Below are positions 1 through 19,172 of a DNA stretch of 64,000 nucleotides, one piece after another. The DNA lies in assembly GCA_030272585.1 (NCBI GenBank), contig BSYQ01000005.1:6169501-6233500 (forward strand). The letters are read 5' to 3'. The translations under genes were made by a program, and so were the position numbers. Within the stretch, counting starts at the first letter, position 1; each line of letters begins with the position of its first letter. The notes beneath the pieces were generated by a model that saw only the letters and a program-made list of their open reading frames with translations, did not search any database and had not been told where the DNA came from. Source of the DNA: Bryopsis sp. KO-2023. Lineage: Eukaryota; Chlorophyta; Ulvophyceae; Bryopsidales; Bryopsidaceae.

Positions 1-93
1 ATTTACGGTAATTTATGGTCGGACAAGTTCTTACTACGGTTACGGTGACCGTGACCGTAAGGTCCTGTCTATGGTCGGAACGGAAGGGCGGAC

Positions 94-166
94 GCCCGAG
101 GAGGGACTCGAACCCTCGGCCACGAGATTAAAAGTCTCGCGCTCTGCCAAACTGAGCTACCCGGGC
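94..166 (-). tRNA. tRNA-Lys (UUU), unit 1
   Basis: The minus strand folds into a full cloverleaf of 73 nt. The 7-bp acceptor stem GCCCGGG/CTCGGGC has one G-U pair. The D arm is GCTC/GAGC, and the anticodon stem CGAGA/TCTCG holds the loop CTTTTAA (anticodon UUU). The T arm is GAGGG TTCGAGT CCCTC. No A-run, which would give a minus-strand T-run terminator, lies just below position 94. Confidence 0.96.
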
Positions 167-272
167 ATATCTCAAGCAGGATCGCGCCGATCTCGTGGAT
201 CCCGATTCCGGGAATCTCGATCGCGGGGGGGCGACCGAGCCTCCACGCAGCGCGCGATCGACTCGTCGTCGA

Positions 273-354
273 GCTGAGATGTCCGAGTGGTTAAGGAGGT
301 GGACTCGAAATCCACTGGGTTCATCCCGCGCAGGTTCAAATCCTGCTCTCAGCG
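273..354 (+). tRNA. tRNA-Ser (CGA), unit 1
   Basis: Class II tRNA of 82 nt with a perfect GCTGAGA/TCTCAGC acceptor stem. The anticodon stem GTGGA/TCCAC holds loop CTCGAAA (anticodon CGA), followed by a long variable arm TGGGTTCATCCCGC. The T arm is GCAGG TTCAAAT CCTGC and the discriminator is G, as expected for serine. A T5 run follows at 368-372. Confidence 0.96.
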
Positions 355-367
355 AGCGTCGAAGTCG

Positions 368-372
368 TTTTT
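368..372 (+). terminator. Pol III T-run after tRNA-Ser(CGA)
   Basis: Five T residues lie 13 bases after the tRNA 3' end, a standard RNA polymerase III stop. The run recurs at the same place in every unit. Confidence 0.7.
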
Positions 373-557
373 CGGAGCGGCAAAAGACAAGGATGCAAGG
401 TGGGCGTGCATGAACCCGGGTCTCCTGCGTGACAGTGACAGGCAAGAATACTCACCGCCGTACTGCAACGACTCGATCACGATGACGAGGCTGACGATGA
501 GGTTGATGACGAGGCGTGCGACGAGGATGGACGACGCGACGCCTCATCACGACGTGA

Positions 558-639
558 GTTGGGGTGTCCGAGTGGTTAAGGAGGTGGACTAGAAATCCAC
601 TGGGTTTGTCCCGCGCAGGTTCGAATCCTGCCCTCAACG
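558..639 (+). tRNA. tRNA-Ser (AGA), unit 1
   Basis: Class II tRNA of 82 nt. The acceptor GTTGGGG pairs with CCTCAAC with one G-U pair, the loop CTAGAAA gives anticodon AGA, and the T arm is GCAGG TTCGAAT CCTGC with discriminator G. Its body is nearly the same as the Ser(CGA) gene 285 bases upstream, so the two look like an old duplicate pair. The downstream flank is GT-rich and has no T-run. Confidence 0.96.
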
Positions 640-695
640 AGGCATGTGTGTGCGTGTGTGTTCGCGAACCGAGGGGGTGACGCGGAAAGGCACGT

Positions 696-778
696 TGTGG
701 TGAGTGGGATTCGAACCCACGCTCGTCTCCGAACTAGAACCTGAATCTAGCGCCTTAGACCAACTCGGCCATCACCAC
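696..778 (-). tRNA. tRNA-Leu (CAG), unit 1
   Basis: Class II cloverleaf of 83 nt on the minus strand. The acceptor GTGGTGA/TCACCAC is perfect. The anticodon stem CTAGA/TCTAG holds loop TTCAGGT (anticodon CAG). The T arm is GTGGG TTCGAAT CCCAC and the discriminator is A, as expected for leucine. No canonical terminator T-run is seen. Confidence 0.96.
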
Positions 779-876
779 ACCATCGTCGCTCGGGAGCCAC
801 CCCCACGAGGGCCCCGCCCCGGACGGGAGTCGCAGGCGACGCCCCCCGAGATCGGCGGCACGGAAATCTTTCCGTG

Positions 877-968
877 GCCTCGGTGGCGCAGTCGGTTAGC
901 GCGTCGGTCTCATAACCTCGTGAGCCATCCGGAGGTCACCAGTTCGATCCTGGTCCTGGTCCGGGGCA
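877..968 (+). tRNA. tRNA-Met (CAU, elongator) with intron and 6-bp insertion, unit 1
   Basis: The acceptor GCCTCGG pairs with CCGGGGC, the D arm is GCGC/GCGC, and the anticodon loop CTCATA|A gives CAU. A 12-nt intron at about 915-926 sits after position 37, where eukaryotic tRNA introns lie; plant elongator Met tRNAs carry an intron at the same site. In units 1 and 2 the T stem is followed by a second copy of CCTGGT, which adds six bases between the T stem and the acceptor strand. Units 3-7 lack it and fold normally, so this copy may be non-functional. Confidence 0.85.
915..926 (+). other. tRNA-Met intron (unit 1)
   Basis: Twelve bases, ACCTCGTGAGCC, interrupt the anticodon loop after the base 3' of CAU. 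Removing them restores a 7-nt loop and a TCGGT/TCCGG stem with the U-U pair often seen in Met tRNAs. The exact ends could shift by one base. The same intron is in all seven units. Confidence 0.75.
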
Positions 969-976
969 ACCAACGC

Positions 977-980
977 TTTT
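977..980 (+). terminator. Pol III T4 run after tRNA-Met
   Basis: TTTT lies 8 bases past the tRNA 3' end and is kept in all units. Confidence 0.55.
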
Positions 981-1016
981 GACGGGACGCCCCACGCCAC
1001 GTCACAAATTCTGACG

Positions 1017-1097
1017 TGTGGCGAGTGGGATTTGAACCCACGCCCTTTCGGACTGGAACCTTACTCCAGCGCCTTGGACCAACTCGGCCATCGCCAC
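1017..1097 (-). tRNA. tRNA-Leu (AAG), unit 1
   Basis: Class II cloverleaf of 81 nt on the minus strand. The acceptor GTGGCGA/TCGCCAC is perfect. The anticodon stem CTGGA/TCCAG holds loop GTAAGGT (anticodon AAG). The T arm is GTGGG TTCAAAT CCCAC and the discriminator is A. The 3' flank, ACGTCAGAATTTGTGACGT on the minus strand, forms an inverted repeat rather than a T-run. Confidence 0.95.
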
Positions 1098-1156
1098 ATA
1101 CGAGAGGAGGGGTCCGCCGCGCGTCTTCAAGCTGGGGTCTCGGACGTCGGTCCGCT

Positions 1157-1163
1157 AAAAAAA
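1157..1163 (-). terminator. Pol III T7 run after tRNA-Gly(CCC)
   Basis: Seven A on the plus strand make a T7 run on the minus strand, 9 bases downstream of the Gly(CCC) gene. It is the strongest terminator in the unit. Confidence 0.75.
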
Positions 1164-1172
1164 GAGCACGAG

Positions 1173-1243
1173 TGCGTTGACCGGGAATCGAACCCGGGTC
1201 TCTACCTTGGGAGGGTAGTATGCTACCACTATATCACCAACGC
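1173..1243 (-). tRNA. tRNA-Gly (CCC), unit 1
   Basis: The 71-nt cloverleaf has acceptor GCGTTGG/TCAACGC with one G-U pair. The anticodon stem CTACC/GGTAG holds loop CTCCCAA (anticodon CCC), the T arm is CCGGG TTCGATT CCCGG, and the discriminator is A. Confidence 0.96.
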
Positions 1244-2544
1244 GGCTCGAGGGATTGCGCGTGCGGAGAGCGTGGTAGGTTCGGGAAGCTGTCGGGAAGC
1301 TGTCGGGGACAAGTGCCGTCGCGCGCGGGAACGAGGTTGCGCCAAAACTTCGGGAGGGTGTTCGTTCGTGGTTAGGACTCGTTTCGAGTTTTTTCATCGT
1401 TGCGATTTTTCCGGGTGCTCGGATTCGGATATACGAGAGATATCGGCAATGGCCCATTTCGTTCGCTCGAATTATCGCGTAAAAGGAGTTCTTCGTTTTC
1501 CATGGGTTTTTGGTGTCTCTTCGAGTTGTGGTGTATTATTATTATTTTTATTTTTTTCTTTCCTCGCAAGAGATCGATTCGTTTCTTTCTATTTTCGTCG
1601 TTCTTTTCTTATTTTTGTGCCGTTCGTTCCCTCCTTTCCTTCCAATAATCTTTCTTTTCTTTTCTTCCCTTTTCCGTGCTTTTCTGCTTTTTCCTTTTTC
1701 GATTCTTTCTCTTTCGGTCCTTTCGAGAAGATTCCATTTCCTTTGCATTCTTCTTTCGCCGTTTCGAAAGGTTTTTTTCTCCCCCTTCGAAATCAAACCG
1801 GTTTCTGTCTATCGTGTTTTCTCTCAAAGTTCATTTTCCTTCTTTCCCTCCCCCTTTTCTTTTCCTTTCTAGCTTTTTCGCTCTTTTCTTCGACCTCTCT
1901 CCCGATTTTCTCCCGAGAGGGATCCCGTGGATGATCCCGGATTACCCGATCGGATGATCCAACAAGGGCGCGGTTGAACCCAGAAACGCCACCAACACGC
2001 CACCACCTGTGCGTTCCGTCGCCACACACGTCAAAACAGAAACGAACATGCTCCCAAGGCTTTTTCGCTCTACTGCCGCTCACCCACGAGCTGACCCACA
2101 CACACTCCACCGCCCGCGCGCGCGCTCACAGGCGCACACTCACCCACACACCCACACACGAAAGATCGTGCCACACCTGAAAACGCTCCCACGGGGTCCT
2201 TTTCGATTGGATGAAGCCAAAAACACCATTTCACCGCTCTGCCCACCTCACCTCAAAAGAACAAACAAAAAACAATCGGTCCCCCAAACCGTCGGAGGGA
2301 CACGTCCCTCGCGCACCTGAAAAACGGATACTTCACCTCCCGGCGTCCGCTTCAAAACGTGTTGCCATCAAACCACCGTGAATACATGCGATCCCTTCCG
2401 AACTCGCCAATCAAGCACGGTTGGGGCCGATCAGTACCGAGATCAGGGATGTCTCAGGAAATCCGGCGGCGGCAACTCGGTGCACTGTTCTTTTTCCGTG
2501 CTTGTTTTTTTTGGGGGCTACGACCGGGAAGAAAAGGCCTTGAG
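1244..2544. other. Gene-free spacer of the repeat unit
   Basis: I see no gene here. A C/T-rich block (about 1380-1915, plus strand) with a short ATT microsatellite near 1533-1550 is followed by a CA-rich block (about 2085-2160). A short inverted repeat, GAGGGAC-AC-GTCCCTC, lies near 2296-2311. No 5S rRNA, U6, SRP or spliced-leader motif was recognised. Open frames of up to 300 codons cross this region, but they start inside tRNA genes and read low-complexity sequence. The same spacer recurs in every unit. Confidence 0.8.
2532..2535 (-). terminator. Pol III T4 run after tRNA-Gly(GCC)
   Basis: AAAA on the plus strand, so TTTT 9 bases downstream of the minus-strand Gly(GCC) gene. Confidence 0.55.
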
Positions 2545-2615
2545 TGCGTTGACCGGGAATCGAACCCGGGTCTCTACCGTGGCAGGGTAGTATGCTACCA
2601 CTGTACCATCAACGC
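2545..2615 (-). tRNA. tRNA-Gly (GCC), unit 1
   Basis: The 71-nt cloverleaf has a perfect acceptor GCGTTGA/TCAACGC, loop CTGCCAC (anticodon GCC), T arm CCGGG TTCGATT CCCGG and discriminator A. It is a close paralogue of the Gly(CCC) gene 1.3 kb away. Confidence 0.96.
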
Positions 2616-2715
2616 CTCGACGAAAATACCCGAGCTTGCTCGATCGGGTAACATGCGTGCGGGGGAATCGGGCCGGAACCGGGCAGAGGACTTTGGTCAA
2701 AATTCGGGTCCGGGG

Positions 2716-2850
2716 TTACGGTCGTGTTACCCGTCGCCGTAATGCGGCCGTAATTGTGTTCCGTAACCGAAAGTTGTTTACTCTCCCGTCATTTACGGTA
2801 ATTTATGGTCGGACAAGTTCTTACTACGGTTACGGTGACCGTGACCGTAA
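2716..2850. promoter_or_regulatory. Cluster of TTACGG/CCGTAA hexamers across the unit 1-unit 2 joint
   Basis: Seven copies of one hexamer occur in 135 bp: TTACGG at 2716, 2793 and 2830, and CCGTAA at 2737, 2748, 2761 and 2845. The last two form a near-palindrome around GACCGTG. A binding-site cluster is an inference; nothing in the sequence shows a function. It recurs at each joint. Confidence 0.35.
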
Positions 2851-2883
2851 GGTCCTGTCTATGGTCGGAACGGAAGGGCGGAC

Positions 2884-2956
2884 GCCCGAGGAGGGACTCG
2901 AACCCTCGGCCACGAGATTAAAAGTCTCGCGCTCTGCCAAACTGAGCTACCCGGGC
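2884..2956 (-). tRNA. tRNA-Lys (UUU), unit 2
   Basis: Matches the unit 1 gene. Confidence 0.95.
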
Positions 2957-3062
2957 ATATCTCAAGCAGGATCGCGCCGATCTCGTGGATCCCGATTCCG
3001 GGAATCTCGATCGCGGGGGGGCGACCGAGCCTCCACGCAGCGCGCGATCGACTCGTCGTCGA

Positions 3063-3144
3063 GCTGAGATGTCCGAGTGGTTAAGGAGGTGGACTCGAAA
3101 TCCACTGGGTTCATCCCGCGCAGGTTCAAATCCTGCTCTCAGCG
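3063..3144 (+). tRNA. tRNA-Ser (CGA), unit 2
   Basis: Matches the unit 1 gene. Confidence 0.95.
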
Positions 3145-3347
3145 AGCGTCGAAGTCGTTTTTCGGAGCGGCAAAAGACAAGGATGCAAGGTGGGCGTGCA
3201 TGAACCCGGGTCTCCTGCGTGACAGTGACAGGCAAGAATACTCACCGCCGTACTGCAACGACTCGATCACGATGACGAGGCTGACGATGAGGTTGATGAC
3301 GAGGCGTGCGACGAGGATGGACGACGCGACGCCTCATCACGACGTGA

Positions 3348-3429
3348 GTTGGGGTGTCCGAGTGGTTAAGGAGGTGGACTAGAAATCCACTGGGTTTGTC
3401 CCGCGCAGGTTCGAATCCTGCCCTCAACG
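3348..3429 (+). tRNA. tRNA-Ser (AGA), unit 2
   Basis: Matches the unit 1 gene. Confidence 0.95.
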
Positions 3430-3485
3430 AGGCATGTGTGTGCGTGTGTGTTCGCGAACCGAGGGGGTGACGCGGAAAGGCACGT

Positions 3486-3568
3486 TGTGGTGAGTGGGAT
3501 TCGAACCCACGCTCGTCTCCGAACTAGAACCTGAATCTAGCGCCTTAGACCAACTCGGCCATCACCAC
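3486..3568 (-). tRNA. tRNA-Leu (CAG), unit 2
   Basis: Matches the unit 1 gene. Confidence 0.95.
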
Positions 3569-3666
3569 ACCATCGTCGCTCGGGAGCCACCCCCACGAGG
3601 GCCCCGCCCCGGACGGGAGTCGCAGGCGACGCCCCCCGAGATCGGCGGCACGGAAATCTTTCCGTG

Positions 3667-3758
3667 GCCTCGGTGGCGCAGTCGGTTAGCGCGTCGGTCT
3701 CATAACCTCGTGAGCCATCCGGAGGTCACCAGTTCGATCCTGGTCCTGGTCCGGGGCA
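3667..3758 (+). tRNA. tRNA-Met (CAU) with intron and 6-bp insertion, unit 2
   Basis: Shares the extra CCTGGT after the T stem with unit 1; possibly non-functional. Confidence 0.85.
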
Positions 3759-3806
3759 ACCAACGCTTTTGACGGGACGCCCCACGCCACGTCACAAATT
3801 CTGACG

Positions 3807-3887
3807 TGTGGCGAGTGGGATTTGAACCCACGCCCTTTCGGACTGGAACCTTACTCCAGCGCCTTGGACCAACTCGGCCATCGCCAC
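3807..3887 (-). tRNA. tRNA-Leu (AAG), unit 2
   Basis: Matches the unit 1 gene. Confidence 0.95.
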
Positions 3888-3962
3888 ATACGAGAGGAGG
3901 GGTCCGCCGCGCGTCTTCAAGCTGGGGTCTCGGACGTCGGTCCGCTAAAAAAAGAGCACGAG

Positions 3963-4033
3963 TGCGTTGACCGGGAATCGAACCCGGGTCTCTACCTTGG
4001 GAGGGTAGTATGCTACCACTATATCACCAACGC
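3963..4033 (-). tRNA. tRNA-Gly (CCC), unit 2
   Basis: Matches the unit 1 gene. Confidence 0.95.
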
Positions 4034-5334
4034 GGCTCGAGGGATTGCGCGTGCGGAGAGCGTGGTAGGTTCGGGAAGCTGTCGGGAAGCTGTCGGGGAC
4101 AAGTGCCGTCGCGCGCGGGAACGAGGTTGCGCCAAAACTTCGGGAGGGTGTTCGTTCGTGGTTAGGACTCGTTTCGAGTTTTTTCATCGTTGCGATTTTT
4201 CCGGGTGCTCGGATTCGGATATACGAGAGATATCGGCAATGGCCCATTTCGTTCGCTCGAATTATCGCGTAAAAGGAGTTCTTCGTTTTCCATGGGTTTT
4301 TGGTGTCTCTTCGAGTTGTGGTGTATTATTATTATTTTTATTTTTTTCTTTCCTCGCAAGAGATCGATTCGTTTCTTTCTATTTTCGTCGTTCTTTTCTT
4401 ATTTTTGTGCCGTTCGTTCCCTCCTTTCCTTCCAATAATCTTTCTTTTCTTTTCTTCCCTTTTCCGTGCTTTTCTGCTTTTTCCTTTTTCGATTCTTTCT
4501 CTTTCGGTCCTTTCGAGAAGATTCCATTTCCTTTGCATTCTTCTTTCGCCGTTTCGAAAGGTTTTTTTCTCCCCCTTCGAAATCAAACCGGTTTCTGTCT
4601 ATCGTGTTTTCTCTCAAAGTTCATTTTCCTTCTTTCCCTCCCCCTTTTCTTTTCCTTTCTAGCTTTTTCGCTCTTTTCTTCGACCTCTCTCCCGATTTTC
4701 TCCCGAGAGGGATCCCGTGGATGATCCCGGATTACCCGATCGGATGATCCAACAAGGGCGCGGTTGAACCCAGAAACGCCACCAACACGCCACCACCTGT
4801 GCGTTCCGTCGCCACACACGTCAAAACAGAAACGAACATGCTCCCAAGGCTTTTTCGCTCTACTGCCGCTCACCCACGAGCTGACCCACACACACTCCAC
4901 CGCCCGCGCGCGCGCTCACAGGCGCACACTCACCCACACACCCACACACGAAAGATCGTGCCACACCTGAAAACGCTCCCACGGGGTCCTTTTCGATTGG
5001 ATGAAGCCAAAAACACCATTTCACCGCTCTGCCCACCTCACCTCAAAAGAACAAACAAAAAACAATCGGTCCCCCAAACCGTCGGAGGGACACGTCCCTC
5101 GCGCACCTGAAAAACGGATACTTCACCTCCCGGCGTCCGCTTCAAAACGTGTTGCCATCAAACCACCGTGAATACATGCGATCCCTTCCGAACTCGCCAA
5201 TCAAGCACGGTTGGGGCCGATCAGTACCGAGATCAGGGATGTCTCAGGAAATCCGGCGGCGGCAACTCGGTGCACTGTTCTTTTTCCGTGCTTGTTTTTT
5301 TTGGGGGCTACGACCGGGAAGAAAAGGCCTTGAG

Positions 5335-5405
5335 TGCGTTGACCGGGAATCGAACCCGGGTCTCTACCGTGGCAGGGTAGTATGCTACCACTGTACCATC
5401 AACGC
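5335..5405 (-). tRNA. tRNA-Gly (GCC), unit 2
   Basis: Matches the unit 1 gene. Confidence 0.95.
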
Positions 5406-5673
5406 CTCGACGAAAATACCCGAGCTTGCTCGATCGGGTAACATGCGTGCGGGGGAATCGGGCCGGAACCGGGCAGAGGACTTTGGTCAAAATTCGGGTC
5501 CGGGGTTACGGTCGTGTTACCCGTCGCCGTAATGCGGCCGTAATTGTGTTCCGTAACCGAAAGTTGTTTACTCTCCCGTCATTTACGGTAATTTATGGTC
5601 GGACAAGTTCTTACTACGGTTACGGTGACCGTGACCGTAAGGTCCTGTCTATGGTCGGAACGGAAGGGCGGAC

Positions 5674-5746
5674 GCCCGAGGAGGGACTCGAACCCTCGGC
5701 CACGAGATTAAAAGTCTCGCGCTCTGCCAAACTGAGCTACCCGGGC
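5674..5746 (-). tRNA. tRNA-Lys (UUU), unit 3
   Basis: Matches the unit 1 gene. Confidence 0.95.
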
Positions 5747-5852
5747 ATATCTCAAGCAGGATCGCGCCGATCTCGTGGATCCCGATTCCGGGAATCTCGA
5801 TCGCGGGGGGGCGACCGAGCCTCCACGCAGCGCGCGATCGACTCGTCGTCGA

Positions 5853-5934
5853 GCTGAGATGTCCGAGTGGTTAAGGAGGTGGACTCGAAATCCACTGGGT
5901 TCATCCCGCGCAGGTTCAAATCCTGCTCTCAGCG
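5853..5934 (+). tRNA. tRNA-Ser (CGA), unit 3
   Basis: Matches the unit 1 gene. Confidence 0.95.
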
Positions 5935-6137
5935 AGCGTCGAAGTCGTTTTTCGGAGCGGCAAAAGACAAGGATGCAAGGTGGGCGTGCATGAACCCGGG
6001 TCTCCTGCGTGACAGTGACAGGCAAGAATACTCACCGCCGTACTGCAACGACTCGATCACGATGACGAGGCTGACGATGAGGTTGATGACGAGGCGTGCG
6101 ACGAGGATGGACGACGCGACGCCTCATCACGACGTGA

Positions 6138-6219
6138 GTTGGGGTGTCCGAGTGGTTAAGGAGGTGGACTAGAAATCCACTGGGTTTGTCCCGCGCAGGT
6201 TCGAATCCTGCCCTCAACG
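6138..6219 (+). tRNA. tRNA-Ser (AGA), unit 3
   Basis: Matches the unit 1 gene. Confidence 0.95.
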
Positions 6220-6275
6220 AGGCATGTGTGTGCGTGTGTGTTCGCGAACCGAGGGGGTGACGCGGAAAGGCACGT

Positions 6276-6358
6276 TGTGGTGAGTGGGATTCGAACCCAC
6301 GCTCGTCTCCGAACTAGAACCTGAATCTAGCGCCTTAGACCAACTCGGCCATCACCAC
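6276..6358 (-). tRNA. tRNA-Leu (CAG), unit 3
   Basis: Matches the unit 1 gene. Confidence 0.95.
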
Positions 6359-6456
6359 ACCATCGTCGCTCGGGAGCCACCCCCACGAGGGCCCCGCCCC
6401 GGACGGGAGTCGCAGGCGACGCCCCCCGAGATCGGCGGCACGGAAATCTTTCCGTG

Positions 6457-6542
6457 GCCTCGGTGGCGCAGTCGGTTAGCGCGTCGGTCTCATAACCTCG
6501 TGAGCCATCCGGAGGTCACCAGTTCGATCCTGGTCCGGGGCA
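6457..6542 (+). tRNA. tRNA-Met (CAU, elongator) with 12-nt intron, unit 3
   Basis: The T arm ACCAG TTCGATC CTGGT runs straight into the acceptor strand CCGGGGC, so after intron removal this copy folds as a normal tRNA. Confidence 0.95.
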
Positions 6543-6590
6543 ACCAACGCTTTTGACGGGACGCCCCACGCCACGTCACAAATTCTGACG

Positions 6591-6671
6591 TGTGGCGAGT
6601 GGGATTTGAACCCACGCCCTTTCGGACTGGAACCTTACTCCAGCGCCTTGGACCAACTCGGCCATCGCCAC
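6591..6671 (-). tRNA. tRNA-Leu (AAG), unit 3
   Basis: Matches the unit 1 gene. Confidence 0.95.
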
Positions 6672-6746
6672 ATACGAGAGGAGGGGTCCGCCGCGCGTCT
6701 TCAAGCTGGGGTCTCGGACGTCGGTCCGCTAAAAAAAGAGCACGAG

Positions 6747-6817
6747 TGCGTTGACCGGGAATCGAACCCGGGTCTCTACCTTGGGAGGGTAGTATGCTAC
6801 CACTATATCACCAACGC
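6747..6817 (-). tRNA. tRNA-Gly (CCC), unit 3
   Basis: Matches the unit 1 gene. Confidence 0.95.
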
Positions 6818-8118
6818 GGCTCGAGGGATTGCGCGTGCGGAGAGCGTGGTAGGTTCGGGAAGCTGTCGGGAAGCTGTCGGGGACAAGTGCCGTCGCGCGC
6901 GGGAACGAGGTTGCGCCAAAACTTCGGGAGGGTGTTCGTTCGTGGTTAGGACTCGTTTCGAGTTTTTTCATCGTTGCGATTTTTCCGGGTGCTCGGATTC
7001 GGATATACGAGAGATATCGGCAATGGCCCATTTCGTTCGCTCGAATTATCGCGTAAAAGGAGTTCTTCGTTTTCCATGGGTTTTTGGTGTCTCTTCGAGT
7101 TGTGGTGTATTATTATTATTTTTATTTTTTTCTTTCCTCGCAAGAGATCGATTCGTTTCTTTCTATTTTCGTCGTTCTTTTCTTATTTTTGTGCCGTTCG
7201 TTCCCTCCTTTCCTTCCAATAATCTTTCTTTTCTTTTCTTCCCTTTTCCGTGCTTTTCTGCTTTTTCCTTTTTCGATTCTTTCTCTTTCGGTCCTTTCGA
7301 GAAGATTCCATTTCCTTTGCATTCTTCTTTCGCCGTTTCGAAAGGTTTTTTTCTCCCCCTTCGAAATCAAACCGGTTTCTGTCTATCGTGTTTTCTCTCA
7401 AAGTTCATTTTCCTTCTTTCCCTCCCCCTTTTCTTTTCCTTTCTAGCTTTTTCGCTCTTTTCTTCGACCTCTCTCCCGATTTTCTCCCGAGAGGGATCCC
7501 GTGGATGATCCCGGATTACCCGATCGGATGATCCAACAAGGGCGCGGTTGAACCCAGAAACGCCACCAACACGCCACCACCTGTGCGTTCCGTCGCCACA
7601 CACGTCAAAACAGAAACGAACATGCTCCCAAGGCTTTTTCGCTCTACTGCCGCTCACCCACGAGCTGACCCACACACACTCCACCGCCCGCGCGCGCGCT
7701 CACAGGCGCACACTCACCCACACACCCACACACGAAAGATCGTGCCACACCTGAAAACGCTCCCACGGGGTCCTTTTCGATTGGATGAAGCCAAAAACAC
7801 CATTTCACCGCTCTGCCCACCTCACCTCAAAAGAACAAACAAAAAACAATCGGTCCCCCAAACCGTCGGAGGGACACGTCCCTCGCGCACCTGAAAAACG
7901 GATACTTCACCTCCCGGCGTCCGCTTCAAAACGTGTTGCCATCAAACCACCGTGAATACATGCGATCCCTTCCGAACTCGCCAATCAAGCACGGTTGGGG
8001 CCGATCAGTACCGAGATCAGGGATGTCTCAGGAAATCCGGCGGCGGCAACTCGGTGCACTGTTCTTTTTCCGTGCTTGTTTTTTTTGGGGGCTACGACCG
8101 GGAAGAAAAGGCCTTGAG

Positions 8119-8189: not shown

Positions 8190-8457
8190 CTCGACGAAAA
8201 TACCCGAGCTTGCTCGATCGGGTAACATGCGTGCGGGGGAATCGGGCCGGAACCGGGCAGAGGACTTTGGTCAAAATTCGGGTCCGGGGTTACGGTCGTG
8301 TTACCCGTCGCCGTAATGCGGCCGTAATTGTGTTCCGTAACCGAAAGTTGTTTACTCTCCCGTCATTTACGGTAATTTATGGTCGGACAAGTTCTTACTA
8401 CGGTTACGGTGACCGTGACCGTAAGGTCCTGTCTATGGTCGGAACGGAAGGGCGGAC

Positions 8458-8530
8458 GCCCGAGGAGGGACTCGAACCCTCGGCCACGAGATTAAAAGTC
8501 TCGCGCTCTGCCAAACTGAGCTACCCGGGC
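8458..8530 (-). tRNA. tRNA-Lys (UUU), unit 4
   Basis: Matches the unit 1 gene. Confidence 0.95.
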
Positions 8531-8636
8531 ATATCTCAAGCAGGATCGCGCCGATCTCGTGGATCCCGATTCCGGGAATCTCGATCGCGGGGGGGCGACC
8601 GAGCCTCCACGCAGCGCGCGATCGACTCGTCGTCGA

Positions 8637-8718
8637 GCTGAGATGTCCGAGTGGTTAAGGAGGTGGACTCGAAATCCACTGGGTTCATCCCGCGCAGGTT
8701 CAAATCCTGCTCTCAGCG
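8637..8718 (+). tRNA. tRNA-Ser (CGA), unit 4
   Basis: Matches the unit 1 gene. Confidence 0.95.
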
Positions 8719-8921
8719 AGCGTCGAAGTCGTTTTTCGGAGCGGCAAAAGACAAGGATGCAAGGTGGGCGTGCATGAACCCGGGTCTCCTGCGTGACAGT
8801 GACAGGCAAGAATACTCACCGCCGTACTGCAACGACTCGATCACGATGACGAGGCTGACGATGAGGTTGATGACGAGGCGTGCGACGAGGATGGACGACG
8901 CGACGCCTCATCACGACGTGA

Positions 8922-9003
8922 GTTGGGGTGTCCGAGTGGTTAAGGAGGTGGACTAGAAATCCACTGGGTTTGTCCCGCGCAGGTTCGAATCCTGCCCTCA
9001 ACG
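8922..9003 (+). tRNA. tRNA-Ser (AGA), unit 4
   Basis: Matches the unit 1 gene. Confidence 0.95.
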
Positions 9004-9059
9004 AGGCATGTGTGTGCGTGTGTGTTCGCGAACCGAGGGGGTGACGCGGAAAGGCACGT

Positions 9060-9142
9060 TGTGGTGAGTGGGATTCGAACCCACGCTCGTCTCCGAACTA
9101 GAACCTGAATCTAGCGCCTTAGACCAACTCGGCCATCACCAC
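9060..9142 (-). tRNA. tRNA-Leu (CAG), unit 4
   Basis: Matches the unit 1 gene. Confidence 0.95.
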
Positions 9143-9240
9143 ACCATCGTCGCTCGGGAGCCACCCCCACGAGGGCCCCGCCCCGGACGGGAGTCGCAGG
9201 CGACGCCCCCCGAGATCGGCGGCACGGAAATCTTTCCGTG

Positions 9241-9326
9241 GCCTCGGTGGCGCAGTCGGTTAGCGCGTCGGTCTCATAACCTCGTGAGCCATCCGGAGGT
9301 CACCAGTTCGATCCTGGTCCGGGGCA
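9241..9326 (+). tRNA. tRNA-Met (CAU) with 12-nt intron, unit 4
   Basis: Matches the uninterrupted unit 3 form. Confidence 0.95.
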
Positions 9327-9374
9327 ACCAACGCTTTTGACGGGACGCCCCACGCCACGTCACAAATTCTGACG

Positions 9375-9455
9375 TGTGGCGAGTGGGATTTGAACCCACG
9401 CCCTTTCGGACTGGAACCTTACTCCAGCGCCTTGGACCAACTCGGCCATCGCCAC
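9375..9455 (-). tRNA. tRNA-Leu (AAG), unit 4
   Basis: Matches the unit 1 gene. Confidence 0.95.
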
Positions 9456-9530
9456 ATACGAGAGGAGGGGTCCGCCGCGCGTCTTCAAGCTGGGGTCTCG
9501 GACGTCGGTCCGCTAAAAAAAGAGCACGAG

Positions 9531-9601
9531 TGCGTTGACCGGGAATCGAACCCGGGTCTCTACCTTGGGAGGGTAGTATGCTACCACTATATCACCAACG
9601 C
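9531..9601 (-). tRNA. tRNA-Gly (CCC), unit 4
   Basis: Matches the unit 1 gene. Confidence 0.95.
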
Positions 9602-10902
9602 GGCTCGAGGGATTGCGCGTGCGGAGAGCGTGGTAGGTTCGGGAAGCTGTCGGGAAGCTGTCGGGGACAAGTGCCGTCGCGCGCGGGAACGAGGTTGCGC
9701 CAAAACTTCGGGAGGGTGTTCGTTCGTGGTTAGGACTCGTTTCGAGTTTTTTCATCGTTGCGATTTTTCCGGGTGCTCGGATTCGGATATACGAGAGATA
9801 TCGGCAATGGCCCATTTCGTTCGCTCGAATTATCGCGTAAAAGGAGTTCTTCGTTTTCCATGGGTTTTTGGTGTCTCTTCGAGTTGTGGTGTATTATTAT
9901 TATTTTTATTTTTTTCTTTCCTCGCAAGAGATCGATTCGTTTCTTTCTATTTTCGTCGTTCTTTTCTTATTTTTGTGCCGTTCGTTCCCTCCTTTCCTTC
10001 CAATAATCTTTCTTTTCTTTTCTTCCCTTTTCCGTGCTTTTCTGCTTTTTCCTTTTTCGATTCTTTCTCTTTCGGTCCTTTCGAGAAGATTCCATTTCCT
10101 TTGCATTCTTCTTTCGCCGTTTCGAAAGGTTTTTTTCTCCCCCTTCGAAATCAAACCGGTTTCTGTCTATCGTGTTTTCTCTCAAAGTTCATTTTCCTTC
10201 TTTCCCTCCCCCTTTTCTTTTCCTTTCTAGCTTTTTCGCTCTTTTCTTCGACCTCTCTCCCGATTTTCTCCCGAGAGGGATCCCGTGGATGATCCCGGAT
10301 TACCCGATCGGATGATCCAACAAGGGCGCGGTTGAACCCAGAAACGCCACCAACACGCCACCACCTGTGCGTTCCGTCGCCACACACGTCAAAACAGAAA
10401 CGAACATGCTCCCAAGGCTTTTTCGCTCTACTGCCGCTCACCCACGAGCTGACCCACACACACTCCACCGCCCGCGCGCGCGCTCACAGGCGCACACTCA
10501 CCCACACACCCACACACGAAAGATCGTGCCACACCTGAAAACGCTCCCACGGGGTCCTTTTCGATTGGATGAAGCCAAAAACACCATTTCACCGCTCTGC
10601 CCACCTCACCTCAAAAGAACAAACAAAAAACAATCGGTCCCCCAAACCGTCGGAGGGACACGTCCCTCGCGCACCTGAAAAACGGATACTTCACCTCCCG
10701 GCGTCCGCTTCAAAACGTGTTGCCATCAAACCACCGTGAATACATGCGATCCCTTCCGAACTCGCCAATCAAGCACGGTTGGGGCCGATCAGTACCGAGA
10801 TCAGGGATGTCTCAGGAAATCCGGCGGCGGCAACTCGGTGCACTGTTCTTTTTCCGTGCTTGTTTTTTTTGGGGGCTACGACCGGGAAGAAAAGGCCTTG
10901 AG

Positions 10903-10973
10903 TGCGTTGACCGGGAATCGAACCCGGGTCTCTACCGTGGCAGGGTAGTATGCTACCACTGTACCATCAACGC
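10903..10973 (-). tRNA. tRNA-Gly (GCC), unit 4
   Basis: Matches the unit 1 gene. Confidence 0.95.
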
Positions 10974-11241
10974 CTCGACGAAAATACCCGAGCTTGCTCG
11001 ATCGGGTAACATGCGTGCGGGGGAATCGGGCCGGAACCGGGCAGAGGACTTTGGTCAAAATTCGGGTCCGGGGTTACGGTCGTGTTACCCGTCGCCGTAA
11101 TGCGGCCGTAATTGTGTTCCGTAACCGAAAGTTGTTTACTCTCCCGTCATTTACGGTAATTTATGGTCGGACAAGTTCTTACTACGGTTACGGTGACCGT
11201 GACCGTAAGGTCCTGTCTATGGTCGGAACGGAAGGGCGGAC

Positions 11242-11787: not shown

Positions 11788-11843
11788 AGGCATGTGTGTG
11801 CGTGTGTGTTCGCGAACCGAGGGGGTGACGCGGAAAGGCACGT

Positions 11844-12110: not shown

Positions 12111-12158
12111 ACCAACGCTTTTGACGGGACGCCCCACGCCACGTCACAAATTCTGACG

Positions 12159-12239
12159 TGTGGCGAGTGGGATTTGAACCCACGCCCTTTCGGACTGGAA
12201 CCTTACTCCAGCGCCTTGGACCAACTCGGCCATCGCCAC
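12159..12239 (-). tRNA. tRNA-Leu (AAG), unit 5
   Basis: Matches the unit 1 gene. Confidence 0.95.
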
Positions 12240-12314
12240 ATACGAGAGGAGGGGTCCGCCGCGCGTCTTCAAGCTGGGGTCTCGGACGTCGGTCCGCTAA
12301 AAAAAGAGCACGAG

Positions 12315-12385
12315 TGCGTTGACCGGGAATCGAACCCGGGTCTCTACCTTGGGAGGGTAGTATGCTACCACTATATCACCAACGC
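12315..12385 (-). tRNA. tRNA-Gly (CCC), unit 5
   Basis: Matches the unit 1 gene. Confidence 0.95.
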
Positions 12386-13686
12386 GGCTCGAGGGATTGC
12401 GCGTGCGGAGAGCGTGGTAGGTTCGGGAAGCTGTCGGGAAGCTGTCGGGGACAAGTGCCGTCGCGCGCGGGAACGAGGTTGCGCCAAAACTTCGGGAGGG
12501 TGTTCGTTCGTGGTTAGGACTCGTTTCGAGTTTTTTCATCGTTGCGATTTTTCCGGGTGCTCGGATTCGGATATACGAGAGATATCGGCAATGGCCCATT
12601 TCGTTCGCTCGAATTATCGCGTAAAAGGAGTTCTTCGTTTTCCATGGGTTTTTGGTGTCTCTTCGAGTTGTGGTGTATTATTATTATTTTTATTTTTTTC
12701 TTTCCTCGCAAGAGATCGATTCGTTTCTTTCTATTTTCGTCGTTCTTTTCTTATTTTTGTGCCGTTCGTTCCCTCCTTTCCTTCCAATAATCTTTCTTTT
12801 CTTTTCTTCCCTTTTCCGTGCTTTTCTGCTTTTTCCTTTTTCGATTCTTTCTCTTTCGGTCCTTTCGAGAAGATTCCATTTCCTTTGCATTCTTCTTTCG
12901 CCGTTTCGAAAGGTTTTTTTCTCCCCCTTCGAAATCAAACCGGTTTCTGTCTATCGTGTTTTCTCTCAAAGTTCATTTTCCTTCTTTCCCTCCCCCTTTT
13001 CTTTTCCTTTCTAGCTTTTTCGCTCTTTTCTTCGACCTCTCTCCCGATTTTCTCCCGAGAGGGATCCCGTGGATGATCCCGGATTACCCGATCGGATGAT
13101 CCAACAAGGGCGCGGTTGAACCCAGAAACGCCACCAACACGCCACCACCTGTGCGTTCCGTCGCCACACACGTCAAAACAGAAACGAACATGCTCCCAAG
13201 GCTTTTTCGCTCTACTGCCGCTCACCCACGAGCTGACCCACACACACTCCACCGCCCGCGCGCGCGCTCACAGGCGCACACTCACCCACACACCCACACA
13301 CGAAAGATCGTGCCACACCTGAAAACGCTCCCACGGGGTCCTTTTCGATTGGATGAAGCCAAAAACACCATTTCACCGCTCTGCCCACCTCACCTCAAAA
13401 GAACAAACAAAAAACAATCGGTCCCCCAAACCGTCGGAGGGACACGTCCCTCGCGCACCTGAAAAACGGATACTTCACCTCCCGGCGTCCGCTTCAAAAC
13501 GTGTTGCCATCAAACCACCGTGAATACATGCGATCCCTTCCGAACTCGCCAATCAAGCACGGTTGGGGCCGATCAGTACCGAGATCAGGGATGTCTCAGG
13601 AAATCCGGCGGCGGCAACTCGGTGCACTGTTCTTTTTCCGTGCTTGTTTTTTTTGGGGGCTACGACCGGGAAGAAAAGGCCTTGAG

Positions 13687-13757
13687 TGCGTTGACCGGGA
13701 ATCGAACCCGGGTCTCTACCGTGGCAGGGTAGTATGCTACCACTGTACCATCAACGC
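13687..13757 (-). tRNA. tRNA-Gly (GCC), unit 5
   Basis: Matches the unit 1 gene. Confidence 0.95.
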
Positions 13758-14025
13758 CTCGACGAAAATACCCGAGCTTGCTCGATCGGGTAACATGCGT
13801 GCGGGGGAATCGGGCCGGAACCGGGCAGAGGACTTTGGTCAAAATTCGGGTCCGGGGTTACGGTCGTGTTACCCGTCGCCGTAATGCGGCCGTAATTGTG
13901 TTCCGTAACCGAAAGTTGTTTACTCTCCCGTCATTTACGGTAATTTATGGTCGGACAAGTTCTTACTACGGTTACGGTGACCGTGACCGTAAGGTCCTGT
14001 CTATGGTCGGAACGGAAGGGCGGAC

Positions 14026-14098
14026 GCCCGAGGAGGGACTCGAACCCTCGGCCACGAGATTAAAAGTCTCGCGCTCTGCCAAACTGAGCTACCCGGGC
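14026..14098 (-). tRNA. tRNA-Lys (UUU), unit 6
   Basis: Matches the unit 1 gene. Confidence 0.95.
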
Positions 14099-14204
14099 AT
14101 ATCTCAAGCAGGATCGCGCCGATCTCGTGGATCCCGATTCCGGGAATCTCGATCGCGGGGGGGCGACCGAGCCTCCACGCAGCGCGCGATCGACTCGTCG
14201 TCGA

Positions 14205-14286
14205 GCTGAGATGTCCGAGTGGTTAAGGAGGTGGACTCGAAATCCACTGGGTTCATCCCGCGCAGGTTCAAATCCTGCTCTCAGCG
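14205..14286 (+). tRNA. tRNA-Ser (CGA), unit 6
   Basis: Matches the unit 1 gene. Confidence 0.95.
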
Positions 14287-14489
14287 AGCGTCGAAGTCGT
14301 TTTTCGGAGCGGCAAAAGACAAGGATGCAAGGTGGGCGTGCATGAACCCGGGTCTCCTGCGTGACAGTGACAGGCAAGAATACTCACCGCCGTACTGCAA
14401 CGACTCGATCACGATGACGAGGCTGACGATGAGGTTGATGACGAGGCGTGCGACGAGGATGGACGACGCGACGCCTCATCACGACGTGA

Positions 14490-14571
14490 GTTGGGGTGTC
14501 CGAGTGGTTAAGGAGGTGGACTAGAAATCCACTGGGTTTGTCCCGCGCAGGTTCGAATCCTGCCCTCAACG
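14490..14571 (+). tRNA. tRNA-Ser (AGA), unit 6
   Basis: Matches the unit 1 gene. Confidence 0.95.
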
Positions 14572-14627
14572 AGGCATGTGTGTGCGTGTGTGTTCGCGAA
14601 CCGAGGGGGTGACGCGGAAAGGCACGT

Positions 14628-14710
14628 TGTGGTGAGTGGGATTCGAACCCACGCTCGTCTCCGAACTAGAACCTGAATCTAGCGCCTTAGACCAACTCGG
14701 CCATCACCAC
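14628..14710 (-). tRNA. tRNA-Leu (CAG), unit 6
   Basis: Matches the unit 1 gene. Confidence 0.95.
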
Positions 14711-14808
14711 ACCATCGTCGCTCGGGAGCCACCCCCACGAGGGCCCCGCCCCGGACGGGAGTCGCAGGCGACGCCCCCCGAGATCGGCGGCACGGAAATC
14801 TTTCCGTG

Positions 14809-14894
14809 GCCTCGGTGGCGCAGTCGGTTAGCGCGTCGGTCTCATAACCTCGTGAGCCATCCGGAGGTCACCAGTTCGATCCTGGTCCGGGGCA
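14809..14894 (+). tRNA. tRNA-Met (CAU) with 12-nt intron, unit 6
   Basis: Matches the uninterrupted unit 3 form. Confidence 0.95.
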
Positions 14895-14942
14895 ACCAAC
14901 GCTTTTGACGGGACGCCCCACGCCACGTCACAAATTCTGACG

Positions 14943-15023
14943 TGTGGCGAGTGGGATTTGAACCCACGCCCTTTCGGACTGGAACCTTACTCCAGCGCCT
15001 TGGACCAACTCGGCCATCGCCAC
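14943..15023 (-). tRNA. tRNA-Leu (AAG), unit 6
   Basis: Matches the unit 1 gene. Confidence 0.95.
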
Positions 15024-15098
15024 ATACGAGAGGAGGGGTCCGCCGCGCGTCTTCAAGCTGGGGTCTCGGACGTCGGTCCGCTAAAAAAAGAGCACGAG

Positions 15099-15169
15099 TG
15101 CGTTGACCGGGAATCGAACCCGGGTCTCTACCTTGGGAGGGTAGTATGCTACCACTATATCACCAACGC
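15099..15169 (-). tRNA. tRNA-Gly (CCC), unit 6
   Basis: Matches the unit 1 gene. Confidence 0.95.
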
Positions 15170-16470
15170 GGCTCGAGGGATTGCGCGTGCGGAGAGCGTG
15201 GTAGGTTCGGGAAGCTGTCGGGAAGCTGTCGGGGACAAGTGCCGTCGCGCGCGGGAACGAGGTTGCGCCAAAACTTCGGGAGGGTGTTCGTTCGTGGTTA
15301 GGACTCGTTTCGAGTTTTTTCATCGTTGCGATTTTTCCGGGTGCTCGGATTCGGATATACGAGAGATATCGGCAATGGCCCATTTCGTTCGCTCGAATTA
15401 TCGCGTAAAAGGAGTTCTTCGTTTTCCATGGGTTTTTGGTGTCTCTTCGAGTTGTGGTGTATTATTATTATTATTATTTTTTTCTTTCCTCGCAAGAGAT
15501 CGATTCGTTTCTTTCTATTTTCGTCGTTCTTTTCTTATTTTTGTGCCGTTCGTTCCCTCCTTTCCTTCCAATAATCTTTCTTTTCTTTTCTTCCCTTTTC
15601 CGTGCTTTTCTGCTTTTTCCTTTTTCGATTCTTTCTCTTTCGGTCCTTTCGAGAAGATTCCATTTCCTTTGCATTCTTCTTTCGCCGTTTCGAAAGGTTT
15701 TTTTCTCCCCCTTCGAAATCAAACCGGTTTCTGTCTATCGTGTTTTCTCTCAAAGTTCATTTTCCTTCTTTCCCTCCCCCTTTTCTTTTCCTTTCTAGCT
15801 TTTTCGCTCTTTTCTTCGACCTCTCTCCCGATTTTCTCCCGAGAGGGATCCCGTGGATGATCCCGGATTACCCGATCGGATGATCCAACAAGGGCGCGGT
15901 TGAACCCAGAAACGCCACCAACACGCCACCACCTGTGCGTTCCGTCGCCACACACGTCAAAACAGAAACGAACATGCTCCCAAGGCTTTTTCGCTCTACT
16001 GCCGCTCACCCACGAGCTGACCCACACACACTCCACCGCCCGCGCGCGCGCTCACAGGCGCACACTCACCCACACACCCACACACGAAAGATCGTGCCAC
16101 ACCTGAAAACGCTCCCACGGGGTCCTTTTCGATTGGATGAAGCCAAAAACACCATTTCACCGCTCTGCCCACCTCACCTCAAAAGAACAAACAAAAAACA
16201 ATCGGTCCCCCAAACCGTCGGAGGGACACGTCCCTCGCGCACCTGAAAAACGGATACTTCACCTCCCGGCGTCCGCTTCAAAACGTGTTGCCATCAAACC
16301 ACCGTGAATACATGCGATCCCTTCCGAACTCGCCAATCAAGCACGGTTGGGGCCGATCAGTACCGAGATCAGGGATGTCTCAGGAAATCCGGCGGCGGCA
16401 ACTCGGTGCACTGTTCTTTTTCCGTGCTTGTTTTTTTTGGGGGCTACGACCGGGAAGAAAAGGCCTTGAG

Positions 16471-16541
16471 TGCGTTGACCGGGAATCGAACCCGGGTCTC
16501 TACCGTGGCAGGGTAGTATGCTACCACTGTACCATCAACGC
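16471..16541 (-). tRNA. tRNA-Gly (GCC), unit 6
   Basis: Matches the unit 1 gene; the last Gly(GCC) in the array. Confidence 0.95.
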
Positions 16542-16809
16542 CTCGACGAAAATACCCGAGCTTGCTCGATCGGGTAACATGCGTGCGGGGGAATCGGGCC
16601 GGAACCGGGCAGAGGACTTTGGTCAAAATTCGGGTCCGGGGTTACGGTCGTGTTACCCGTCGCCGTAATGCGGCCGTAATTGTGTTCCGTAACCGAAAGT
16701 TGTTTACTCTCCCGTCATTTACGGTAATTTATGGTCGGACAAGTTCTTACTACGGTTACGGTGACCGTGACCGTAAGGTCCTGTCTATGGTCGGAACGGA
16801 AGGGCGGAC

Positions 16810-16882
16810 GCCCGAGGAGGGACTCGAACCCTCGGCCACGAGATTAAAAGTCTCGCGCTCTGCCAAACTGAGCTACCCGGGC
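16810..16882 (-). tRNA. tRNA-Lys (UUU), unit 7
   Basis: Matches the unit 1 gene. Confidence 0.95.
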
Positions 16883-16988
16883 ATATCTCAAGCAGGATCG
16901 CGCCGATCTCGTGGATCCCGATTCCGGGAATCTCGATCGCGGGGGGGCGACCGAGCCTCCACGCAGCGCGCGATCGACTCGTCGTCGA

Positions 16989-17070
16989 GCTGAGATGTCC
17001 GAGTGGTTAAGGAGGTGGACTCGAAATCCACTGGGTTCATCCCGCGCAGGTTCAAATCCTGCTCTCAGCG
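16989..17070 (+). tRNA. tRNA-Ser (CGA), unit 7
   Basis: Matches the unit 1 gene. Confidence 0.95.
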
Positions 17071-17273
17071 AGCGTCGAAGTCGTTTTTCGGAGCGGCAAA
17101 AGACAAGGATGCAAGGTGGGCGTGCATGAACCCGGGTCTCCTGCGTGACAGTGACAGGCAAGAATACTCACCGCCGTACTGCAACGACTCGATCACGATG
17201 ACGAGGCTGACGATGAGGTTGATGACGAGGCGTGCGACGAGGATGGACGACGCGACGCCTCATCACGACGTGA

Positions 17274-17355
17274 GTTGGGGTGTCCGAGTGGTTAAGGAGG
17301 TGGACTAGAAATCCACTGGGTTTGTCCCGCGCAGGTTCGAATCCTGCCCTCAACG
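17274..17355 (+). tRNA. tRNA-Ser (AGA), unit 7
   Basis: Matches the unit 1 gene. Confidence 0.95.
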
Positions 17356-17411
17356 AGGCATGTGTGTGCGTGTGTGTTCGCGAACCGAGGGGGTGACGCG
17401 GAAAGGCACGT

Positions 17412-17494
17412 TGTGGTGAGTGGGATTCGAACCCACGCTCGTCTCCGAACTAGAACCTGAATCTAGCGCCTTAGACCAACTCGGCCATCACCAC
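17412..17494 (-). tRNA. tRNA-Leu (CAG), unit 7
   Basis: Matches the unit 1 gene. Confidence 0.95.
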
Positions 17495-17592
17495 ACCATC
17501 GTCGCTCGGGAGCCACCCCCACGAGGGCCCCGCCCCGGACGGGAGTCGCAGGCGACGCCCCCCGAGATCGGCGGCACGGAAATCTTTCCGTG

Positions 17593-17678
17593 GCCTCGGT
17601 GGCGCAGTCGGTTAGCGCGTCGGTCTCATAACCTCGTGAGCCATCCGGAGGTCACCAGTTCGATCCTGGTCCGGGGCA
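17593..17678 (+). tRNA. tRNA-Met (CAU) with 12-nt intron, unit 7
   Basis: Matches the uninterrupted unit 3 form. Confidence 0.95.
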
Positions 17679-17726
17679 ACCAACGCTTTTGACGGGACGC
17701 CCCACGCCACGTCACAAATTCTGACG

Positions 17727-17807
17727 TGTGGCGAGTGGGATTTGAACCCACGCCCTTTCGGACTGGAACCTTACTCCAGCGCCTTGGACCAACTCGGCCA
17801 TCGCCAC
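17727..17807 (-). tRNA. tRNA-Leu (AAG), unit 7
   Basis: Matches the unit 1 gene. Confidence 0.95.
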
Positions 17808-17882
17808 ATACGAGAGGAGGGGTCCGCCGCGCGTCTTCAAGCTGGGGTCTCGGACGTCGGTCCGCTAAAAAAAGAGCACGAG

Positions 17883-17953
17883 TGCGTTGACCGGGAATCG
17901 AACCCGGGTCTCTACCTTGGGAGGGTAGTATGCTACCACTATATCACCAACGC
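17883..17953 (-). tRNA. tRNA-Gly (CCC), unit 7
   Basis: Matches the unit 1 gene; the last intact tRNA gene of the array. Confidence 0.95.
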
Positions 17954-19172
17954 GGCTCGAGGGATTGCGCGTGCGGAGAGCGTGGTAGGTTCGGGAAGCT
18001 GTCGGGAAGCTGTCGGGGACAAGTGCCGTCGCGCGCGGGAACGAGGTTGCGCCAAAACTTCGGGAGGGTGTTCGTTCGTGGTTAGGACTCGTTTCGAGTT
18101 TTTTCATCGTTGCGATTTTTCCGGGTGCTCGGATTCGGATATACGAGAGATATCGGCAATGGCCCATTTCGTTCGCTCGAATTATCGCGTAAAAGGAGTT
18201 CTTCGTTTTCCATGGGTTTTTGGTGTCTCTTCGAGTTGTGGTGTATTATTATTATTATTATTTTTTTCTTTCCTCGCAAGAGATCGATTCGTTTCTTTCT
18301 ATTTTCGTCGTTCTTTTCTTATTTTTGTGCCGTTCGTTCCCTCCTTTCCTTCCAATAATCTTTCTTTTCTTTTCTTCCCTTTTCCGTGCTTTTCTGCTTT
18401 TTCCTTTTTCGATTCTTTCTCTTTCGGTCCTTTCGAGAAGATTCCATTTCCTTTGCATTCTTCTTTCGCCGTTTCGAAAGGTTTTTTTCTCCCCCTTCGA
18501 AATCAAACCGGTTTCTGTCTATCGTGTTTTCTCTCAAAGTTCATTTTCCTTCTTTCCCTCCCCCTTTTCTTTTCCTTTCTAGCTTTTTCGCTCTTTTCTT
18601 CGACCTCTCTCCCGATTTTCTCCCGAGAGGGATCCCGTGGATGATCCCGGATTACCCGATCGGATGATCCAACAAGGGCGCGGTTGAACCCAGAAACGCC
18701 ACCAACACGCCACCACCTGTGCGTTCCGTCGCCACACACGTCAAAACAGAAACGAACATGCTCCCAAGGCTTTTTCGCTCTACTGCCGCTCACCCACGAG
18801 CTGACCCACACACACTCCACCGCCCGCGCGCGCGCTCACAGGCGCACACTCACCCACACACCCACACACGAAAGATCGTGCCACACCTGAAAACGCTCCC
18901 ACGGGGTCCTTTTCGATTGGATGAAGCCAAAAACACCATTTCACCGCTCTGCCCACCTCACCTCAAAAGAACAAACAAAAAACAATCGGTCCCCCAAACC
19001 ATCAGGCACCTGAAAAACGGATACTTCACCTCCCGGCGTCCGCTTCGAAACGTGTTGCCATCAAACCACCGTGAATACATGCGATCCCTTTCGAACTCGC
19101 CAATCAAGCACGGTTGGGGCCGACCAGTACCGAGATCAGGGATGTCTCAGGAAATCCGGCGGCGGCAACTCG

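Follow-up and report, generated by a model that had tools for sequence, protein, structure and literature searches.

Tandem units of eight tRNA genes and one 5S rRNA gene in a contig of Bryopsis sp. KO-2023

What is a locus that repeats the same tRNA genes over 19 kb, how have its copies stayed alike, and what might it be for? These questions are raised by a stretch of 64,000 nt (hereafter the window) of contig BSYQ01000005.1 of Bryopsis sp. KO-2023 (assembly GCA_030272585.1, positions 6,169,501 to 6,233,500), in which positions 1-19171 are taken up by an array of units carrying tRNA and 5S rRNA genes, while the ~45 kb to its right are referred to as the flank. We consider it very probable that the locus is a tandem multigene array of RNA polymerase III (pol III) genes in a nuclear eukaryotic chromosome, a reading that includes the presumed upkeep, growth and supply role of the array discussed below.

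Layout and gene content of the array

Self-comparison of the window gave a unit length of 2790 bp in units 1 and 2 and of 2784 bp in the later units. Positions 1-89 are the end of one further unit, and the left end of the array falls outside the window; at the other side, unit 7 is truncated (16806-19171), and the right end of the array lies directly after its 5S rRNA gene. At offsets of 2790/2784 bp, 500-base blocks were 0.998-1.0 identical, except for the blocks at the change of offset and at the array end. A preliminary description of this DNA had proposed at least seven near-identical units of 2.79 kb that end at position 19172. Six full units and one truncated unit were recovered here, their near-identity was borne out, and the proposed end point was good to within a base, as the array ends at 19171.

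1..19171, no strand assigned: tandem array of 2790/2784-bp units, with the final 89 bases of one followed by six complete units and a truncated one
8454..11237, no strand assigned: unit 4 (2784 bp), taken as the reference and measured from the start of its Lys gene

Each full unit contains eight tRNA genes and one 5S rRNA gene, in an order that is constant across the units: Lys-TTT(-), Ser-CGA(+), Ser-AGA(+), Leu-CAG(-), Met-CAT(+), Leu-AAG(-), Gly-CCC(-), 5S(+) and Gly-GCC(-). The 62 Rfam matches in the window consisted of 55 tRNA and seven 5S matches, all inside 1-19171, with the tRNA matches spanning 93 to 17953, and ARAGORN found 53 tRNAs, the two missed being Met copies with a 6-bp duplication. 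Every one of these tRNA genes was present in seven copies except Gly-GCC, of which there were six, since the last unit ends before reaching it. The tRNA content described previously (55 genes, eight per unit, on both strands, for Lys, Ser twice, Leu twice, Met and Gly twice) is thus confirmed. What had been overlooked in the unit was the 5S rRNA gene, which is present in seven of the seven units with scores of 74.8-76.9 bits, compared to an Rfam gathering score of 38. The locus combines head-to-tail near-identical units with several tRNA genes each, as in a tandem multi-tRNA array, with one 5S gene per unit, as in a tandem 5S rDNA array.

8457..8530, minus strand: tRNA-Lys(TTT), Rfam 70.0 bits, also ARAGORN; other starts 93, 2883, 5673, 11241, 14025, 16809
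8637..8718, plus strand: tRNA-Ser(CGA), Rfam 61.5 bits, also ARAGORN; other starts 273, 3063, 5853, 11421, 14205, 16989
8922..9003, plus strand: tRNA-Ser(AGA), Rfam 56.9 bits; other starts 558, 3348, 6138, 11706, 14490, 17274
9060..9142, minus strand: tRNA-Leu(CAG), Rfam 60.7 bits, also ARAGORN; other starts 696, 3486, 6276, 11844, 14628, 17412
9241..9326, plus strand: tRNA-Met(CAT) with a putative 12-nt intron after position 37, Rfam 51.6 bits; starts of the other copies that lack the duplication 6457, 12025, 14809, 17593
9375..9455, minus strand: tRNA-Leu(AAG), Rfam 55.3 bits; other starts 1017, 3807, 6591, 12159, 14943, 17727
9531..9601, minus strand: tRNA-Gly(CCC), Rfam 60.0 bits; other starts 1173, 3963, 6747, 12315, 15099, 17883
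10718..10836, plus strand: 5S rRNA gene, end-to-end match to Rfam RF00001, 76.9 bits; other starts 2360, 5150, 7934, 13502, 16286
10903..10973, minus strand: tRNA-Gly(GCC), Rfam 64.2 bits, also ARAGORN; other starts 2545, 5335, 8119, 13687, 16471; truncated unit 7 has no copy
19053..19171, plus strand: 5S rRNA gene of the edge unit, with two substitutions, Rfam 74.8 bits

The Rfam scores of 53 tRNAs ranged from 51.6 to 70 bits, and each of the two duplicated Met copies scored 36.2 bits. Folding of single sequences gave cloverleaf-like structures for Lys, Ser-AGA and the spliced Met, and not for Ser-CGA, both Leu and both Gly; these last five are supported by the Rfam family model, which scores structure. 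A box B pattern of our own was matched by seven of the eight tRNAs, missing only Met, the T-loop of which is near the consensus by eye.

Uniformity, variants and growth of the unit

Apart from the end of unit 7, alignment of the seven units revealed only two differences, a 6-bp insertion present in units 1 and 2 and a single variable base in a spacer, with T in the first five units and A in the last two. The right end of unit 7 carries a 17-bp gap and five substitutions, two of which are in the 5S gene. The spacers equal the genes in their uniformity between units. In addition, a probable remnant of a tRNA gene lies outside the array:

19807..19851, plus strand: probable decayed tRNA-Ser fragment, 35/45 bases, E 3.7e-4, 636 bp outside the array

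The alignment score of this fragment was 40, while none of 300 simulated flanks scored above 34. The remnant tests covered the first 1000 bases outside the array with seven queries on two strands, and among these 14 tests the two plus-strand Ser tests stood out, their scores being reached in 0/300 simulations (p at best ~0.003 before allowing for the 14 tests). Among the 10 matches listed for a wider search, the best two were the Ser fragment and the other eight were pyrimidine-rich or T-rich stretches. Two further matches within these 1000 bases were not counted: one to 5S, the score of which 12/300 simulations reached, and one of 14 bases to Met, at 19336-19349, with a score reached in 5/300.

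Given the uniform spacers, the variants shared by neighbouring units, the divergent outermost unit and the Ser fragment outside, the array fits concerted evolution, which may have proceeded by unequal exchange or gene conversion. Unequal sister-chromatid exchange together with gene conversion would keep the copies alike, and the copy number would drift as in other rDNA-like arrays. The similarity of genes within the unit suggests in turn that the unit expanded in part through the doubling of Ser, Leu and Gly genes within it, the anticodons of which would have changed: the Ser pair is identical at 73/82 positions (90% over 86 nt), the Leu pair at 70/83 aligned columns, and the Gly pair at 66/71 positions (87% over 92 nt including the 3' flank). 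As isoacceptors can resemble each other for older reasons, we only infer this growth by duplication.

The 6-bp insertion of units 1 and 2 lies in their Met genes:

877..968, plus strand: tRNA-Met variant of unit 1, in which 6 bp of the T-arm/acceptor region are tandemly duplicated, from Rfam (36.2 bits over 877-962) and the alignment
3667..3758, plus strand: tRNA-Met variant of unit 2 with the identical 6-bp duplication, Rfam 36.2 bits over 3667-3752

The five other Met copies were returned by ARAGORN as 'tRNA-???' with the anticodon 'cata'. We read the 12 extra bases between positions 37 and 38 as an intron, and since ARAGORN leaves the identity of these genes open, the Met reading rests on our placing of the 12-nt intron; without these bases, the Met RNA is predicted from its single sequence to fold much like a cloverleaf. 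By comparison, we take the Met of the array to be of the elongator type. The duplication would either enlarge the T-loop, as in the predicted fold, or separate the T-stem from the acceptor stem. The two copies bearing it are probably poorly functional, although their predicted folding energy (-29.5 vs. -28.3) is no worse than that of the normal gene. The duplication is common to neighbouring units, as might result from the spread of a defective allele by homogenisation. With its ordered variants and divergent edge, the array should be a useful case for the homogenisation of pol III arrays and the spread of a probably defective tRNA allele.

Comparison with tandem arrays of other eukaryotes

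Entamoeba had been named as the nearest known case, and the comparison is sound. In Entamoeba histolytica, almost all tRNA genes belong to arrays, which comprise 25 types of unit and in some of these include 5S (PMC2652664), and the Entamoeba arrays resemble the array described here in their tandem near-identical units, which hold several tRNA genes and in some instances 5S. The largest unit in that 2007 paper, [VMEDR5E] of E. invadens, holds six tRNAs and 5S in 2364 bp (PMC2652664), compared to eight tRNAs and 5S in 2784 bp here, for different amino acids. Given this E. invadens unit, the presence of the 5S gene makes the likeness to Entamoeba closer. The spacers differ, however. As noted in the preliminary description, the unit is GC-rich: the G+C content is 0.554 in the array vs. 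0.457 in the flank, and the spacers have 54% G+C (0.543 for the intergenic DNA of the reference unit), whereas those of E. histolytica have ~80% A+T (PMC2652664). The intergenic pyrimidine content is 0.545 overall, which is not the strong one-strand bias of Entamoeba-type arrays; E. histolytica intergenic DNA is 70.8% pyrimidine, and the bias is essentially absent in E. terrapinae (PMC2652664). Only in E. histolytica and E. dispar are all the genes separated by short tandem repeats (PMC2652664).

The view of Entamoeba as the sole precedent does not hold, as tRNA genes are also arrayed at human 1q23.3 and in Phytophthora infestans. The human repeat consists of 9-43 copies of a 7.3-kb unit that is GC-rich and has five tRNA genes distributed over both strands, and its authors regarded homogeneous tRNA tandem repeats as uncommon outside Entamoeba (PMC4041453). 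It is similar to the array described here in its GC-rich unit, the use of both strands, its Leu and two Gly genes and its near-identical copies, and differs in having five tRNAs per 7.3 kb, 98% identity between units and CTCF binding, with no 5S mentioned in the accessible text (PMC4041453). In P. infestans, 7,519 tRNA genes are predicted on the chromosomes, ~64% of them in one-gene arrays and 36% in arrays whose units have two or three genes (PMC9584435). These too are long tandem tRNA arrays in a microbial eukaryote, with a copy number that was checked by read depth, but the units described hold one, two or three genes, e.g., in 513 and 850 nt (PMC9584435). Tandem 5S and tRNA arrays also occur within one genome in Hydractinia and Nematostella, for which the available text describes no mixing of 5S and tRNA genes inside one unit (PMC11067881). 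According to a 2010 survey, large tRNA clusters arose independently many times among eukaryotes.

Thus, with human 1q23.3 and P. infestans as precedents, this kind of array is not confined to Entamoeba. On the sequence evidence it is a kind already known in other eukaryotes, from which the large mixed unit and the GC-rich spacers set the present array apart; a unit of eight tRNAs and 5S is what it adds to the tandem tRNA arrays described so far. No description of this gene combination was found among the titles, opening parts of abstracts and passages covered by the literature searches, which drew on few subscription journals. A 3.18-kb repeat of Xenopus laevis, which that literature did not yield, reportedly has eight tRNA genes per unit in many copies, for other amino acids and without 5S. 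It is possible, although we regard it as doubtful, that large tandem arrays of multi-gene units hold the majority of the organism's tRNA and 5S genes, that this arrangement arose independently of that in Entamoeba, and that this unit is among the most gene-rich known.

Role of the array and competing explanations

The array would supply 5S rRNA and a subset of tRNAs, and ordinary supply of 5S and the eight tRNAs is most likely its role and also the simplest one; a high tRNA dosage is a plausible extension. Five of the nine genes (Ser-CGA, Met, Gly-CCC, 5S and Gly-GCC) have TTTT within ~15 nt downstream. For Ser-AGA (8922-9335 region), the first TTTT is 331 nt downstream and is the one after Met, so that a joint Ser-Met transcript, antisense to Leu-CAG, is conceivable. 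Codons were counted in four frames, which are not curated gene models, and the codon evidence is therefore weak either way: AAA exceeds AAG (39 vs. 22), in agreement with the Lys-TTT gene, and CTG is frequent (53), but the counts give no clear support for a gene set that matches demand.

The flank points to a nuclear chromosome. When 20 of the 44 listed flank frames were scanned against Pfam, seven of the first ten matched families, namely RAP/FAST, LRR (two frames), phosphopantetheinyl transferase (N-terminal part), MORN, IQ (at the cut-off) and WDR26. Several of these matches are partial and can be read as exons, which suggests an intron-bearing nuclear genome. An open reading frame of 579 codons at 29934-31673 has FAST-kinase-like and RAP domains and probably encodes an organelle RNA-binding protein.

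Several observations weigh against a functional pol III array in a nuclear chromosome. The remaining four of the nine genes lack a nearby TTTT: the Leu genes are followed by TTT only, at 5 and 7 nt, and for Lys and Ser-AGA no TTT was found within 100 nt downstream. The commonest Leu and Ser codons in the counted frames, TTG (68) and AGC (28), are served by none of the genes of the unit. Two of the seven Met copies look damaged by their model score, though not by their folding energy. Only one of the next ten flank frames had a match, a weak one to HAUS1 below the cut-off. Finally, the count of units rests on the assembly.

Some of these observations would be expected if most copies were non-functional satellite DNA that happens to hold tRNA and 5S genes. 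The duplication in the T-arm region of two of the seven Met genes, the four genes lacking a nearby TTTT and the spacers as uniform as the genes are all in keeping with such a satellite, but the other 53 tRNAs score 51.6-70 bits, the 5S gene matches its family end-to-end, and the box B pattern is found in all tRNAs but Met; we therefore regard this explanation as very unlikely. It is likewise very unlikely that the tandem copies were created in assembly from a unit present once or in few copies. The near-identity of the units could be taken as a sign of it, but the variants stand in ordered blocks, and the last unit has edge changes of its own and a unique flank; ordered variant blocks and a distinct edge unit are not readily produced by artefactual copying of one unit.

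A tandem pol III gene array is compatible with a further explanation, in which the role of the locus is mainly chromosomal (boundary, replication pausing or chromosome-end structure) and tRNA supply is secondary. Such a role has been discussed or proposed for Entamoeba and the human 1q23.3 repeat, although the Entamoeba paper itself terms the function obscure (PMC2652664). Two spacer features, both of which had been noticed before and do exist, bear on it:

8290..8424, no strand assigned: cluster of seven TTACGG/CCGTAA hexamers in the spacer from Gly-GCC to Lys, given here for unit 3
9854..10303, plus strand: polypyrimidine block with a C+T content of 70-86% when measured in 100-bp steps, without a match to any RNA family

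The hexamer occurs as seven copies per ~135 bp in each full unit, and some hexamer was equally frequent in 8/1000 simulated sequences, which favours a chromosomal role. There are 45 hexamers in the array vs. four in the 45-kb flank, the 45 being repeats of one cluster. The cluster is a modest signal, in a region picked because the preliminary description pointed there. The pyrimidine block is not exceptional for the window, since its C+T maximum per 300 bp is 0.81 and blocks in the flank reach 0.77. A subtelomeric role, which had been suggested by analogy with Entamoeba, gained no support: ~45 kb with gene-like frames lie to the right of the array, the far left side being outside the window, and no run of at least two copies of any of five common telomere repeats was found in the window. 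Overall, a mainly chromosomal role is unlikely, and ordinary supply from a tandem pol III array remains our preferred explanation.

Searches with single units or parts of them returned further minor matches. Exact 5S patterns, of 45 nt in viral contigs and of 25 nt in genome contigs (one scan each), gave no match. A search of phage records with one unit returned 51 records, and the 20 that were listed align with phage tRNA genes over ~69-77 bases. When one unit was searched permissively against Rfam, 10 of the 18 matches were to tRNA or 5S and the other eight were weak matches on or opposite tRNA genes (seven to plastid-element models and one to a tymovirus tRNA-like element); these eight were below the gathering scores and were taken as by-products of tRNA sequence. 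Among the plastid elements, a ycf2 model matched the strand opposite the Gly genes (9531-9601 and 10903-10973) weakly and below its gathering score, which is probably such a by-product of the tRNA sequence.

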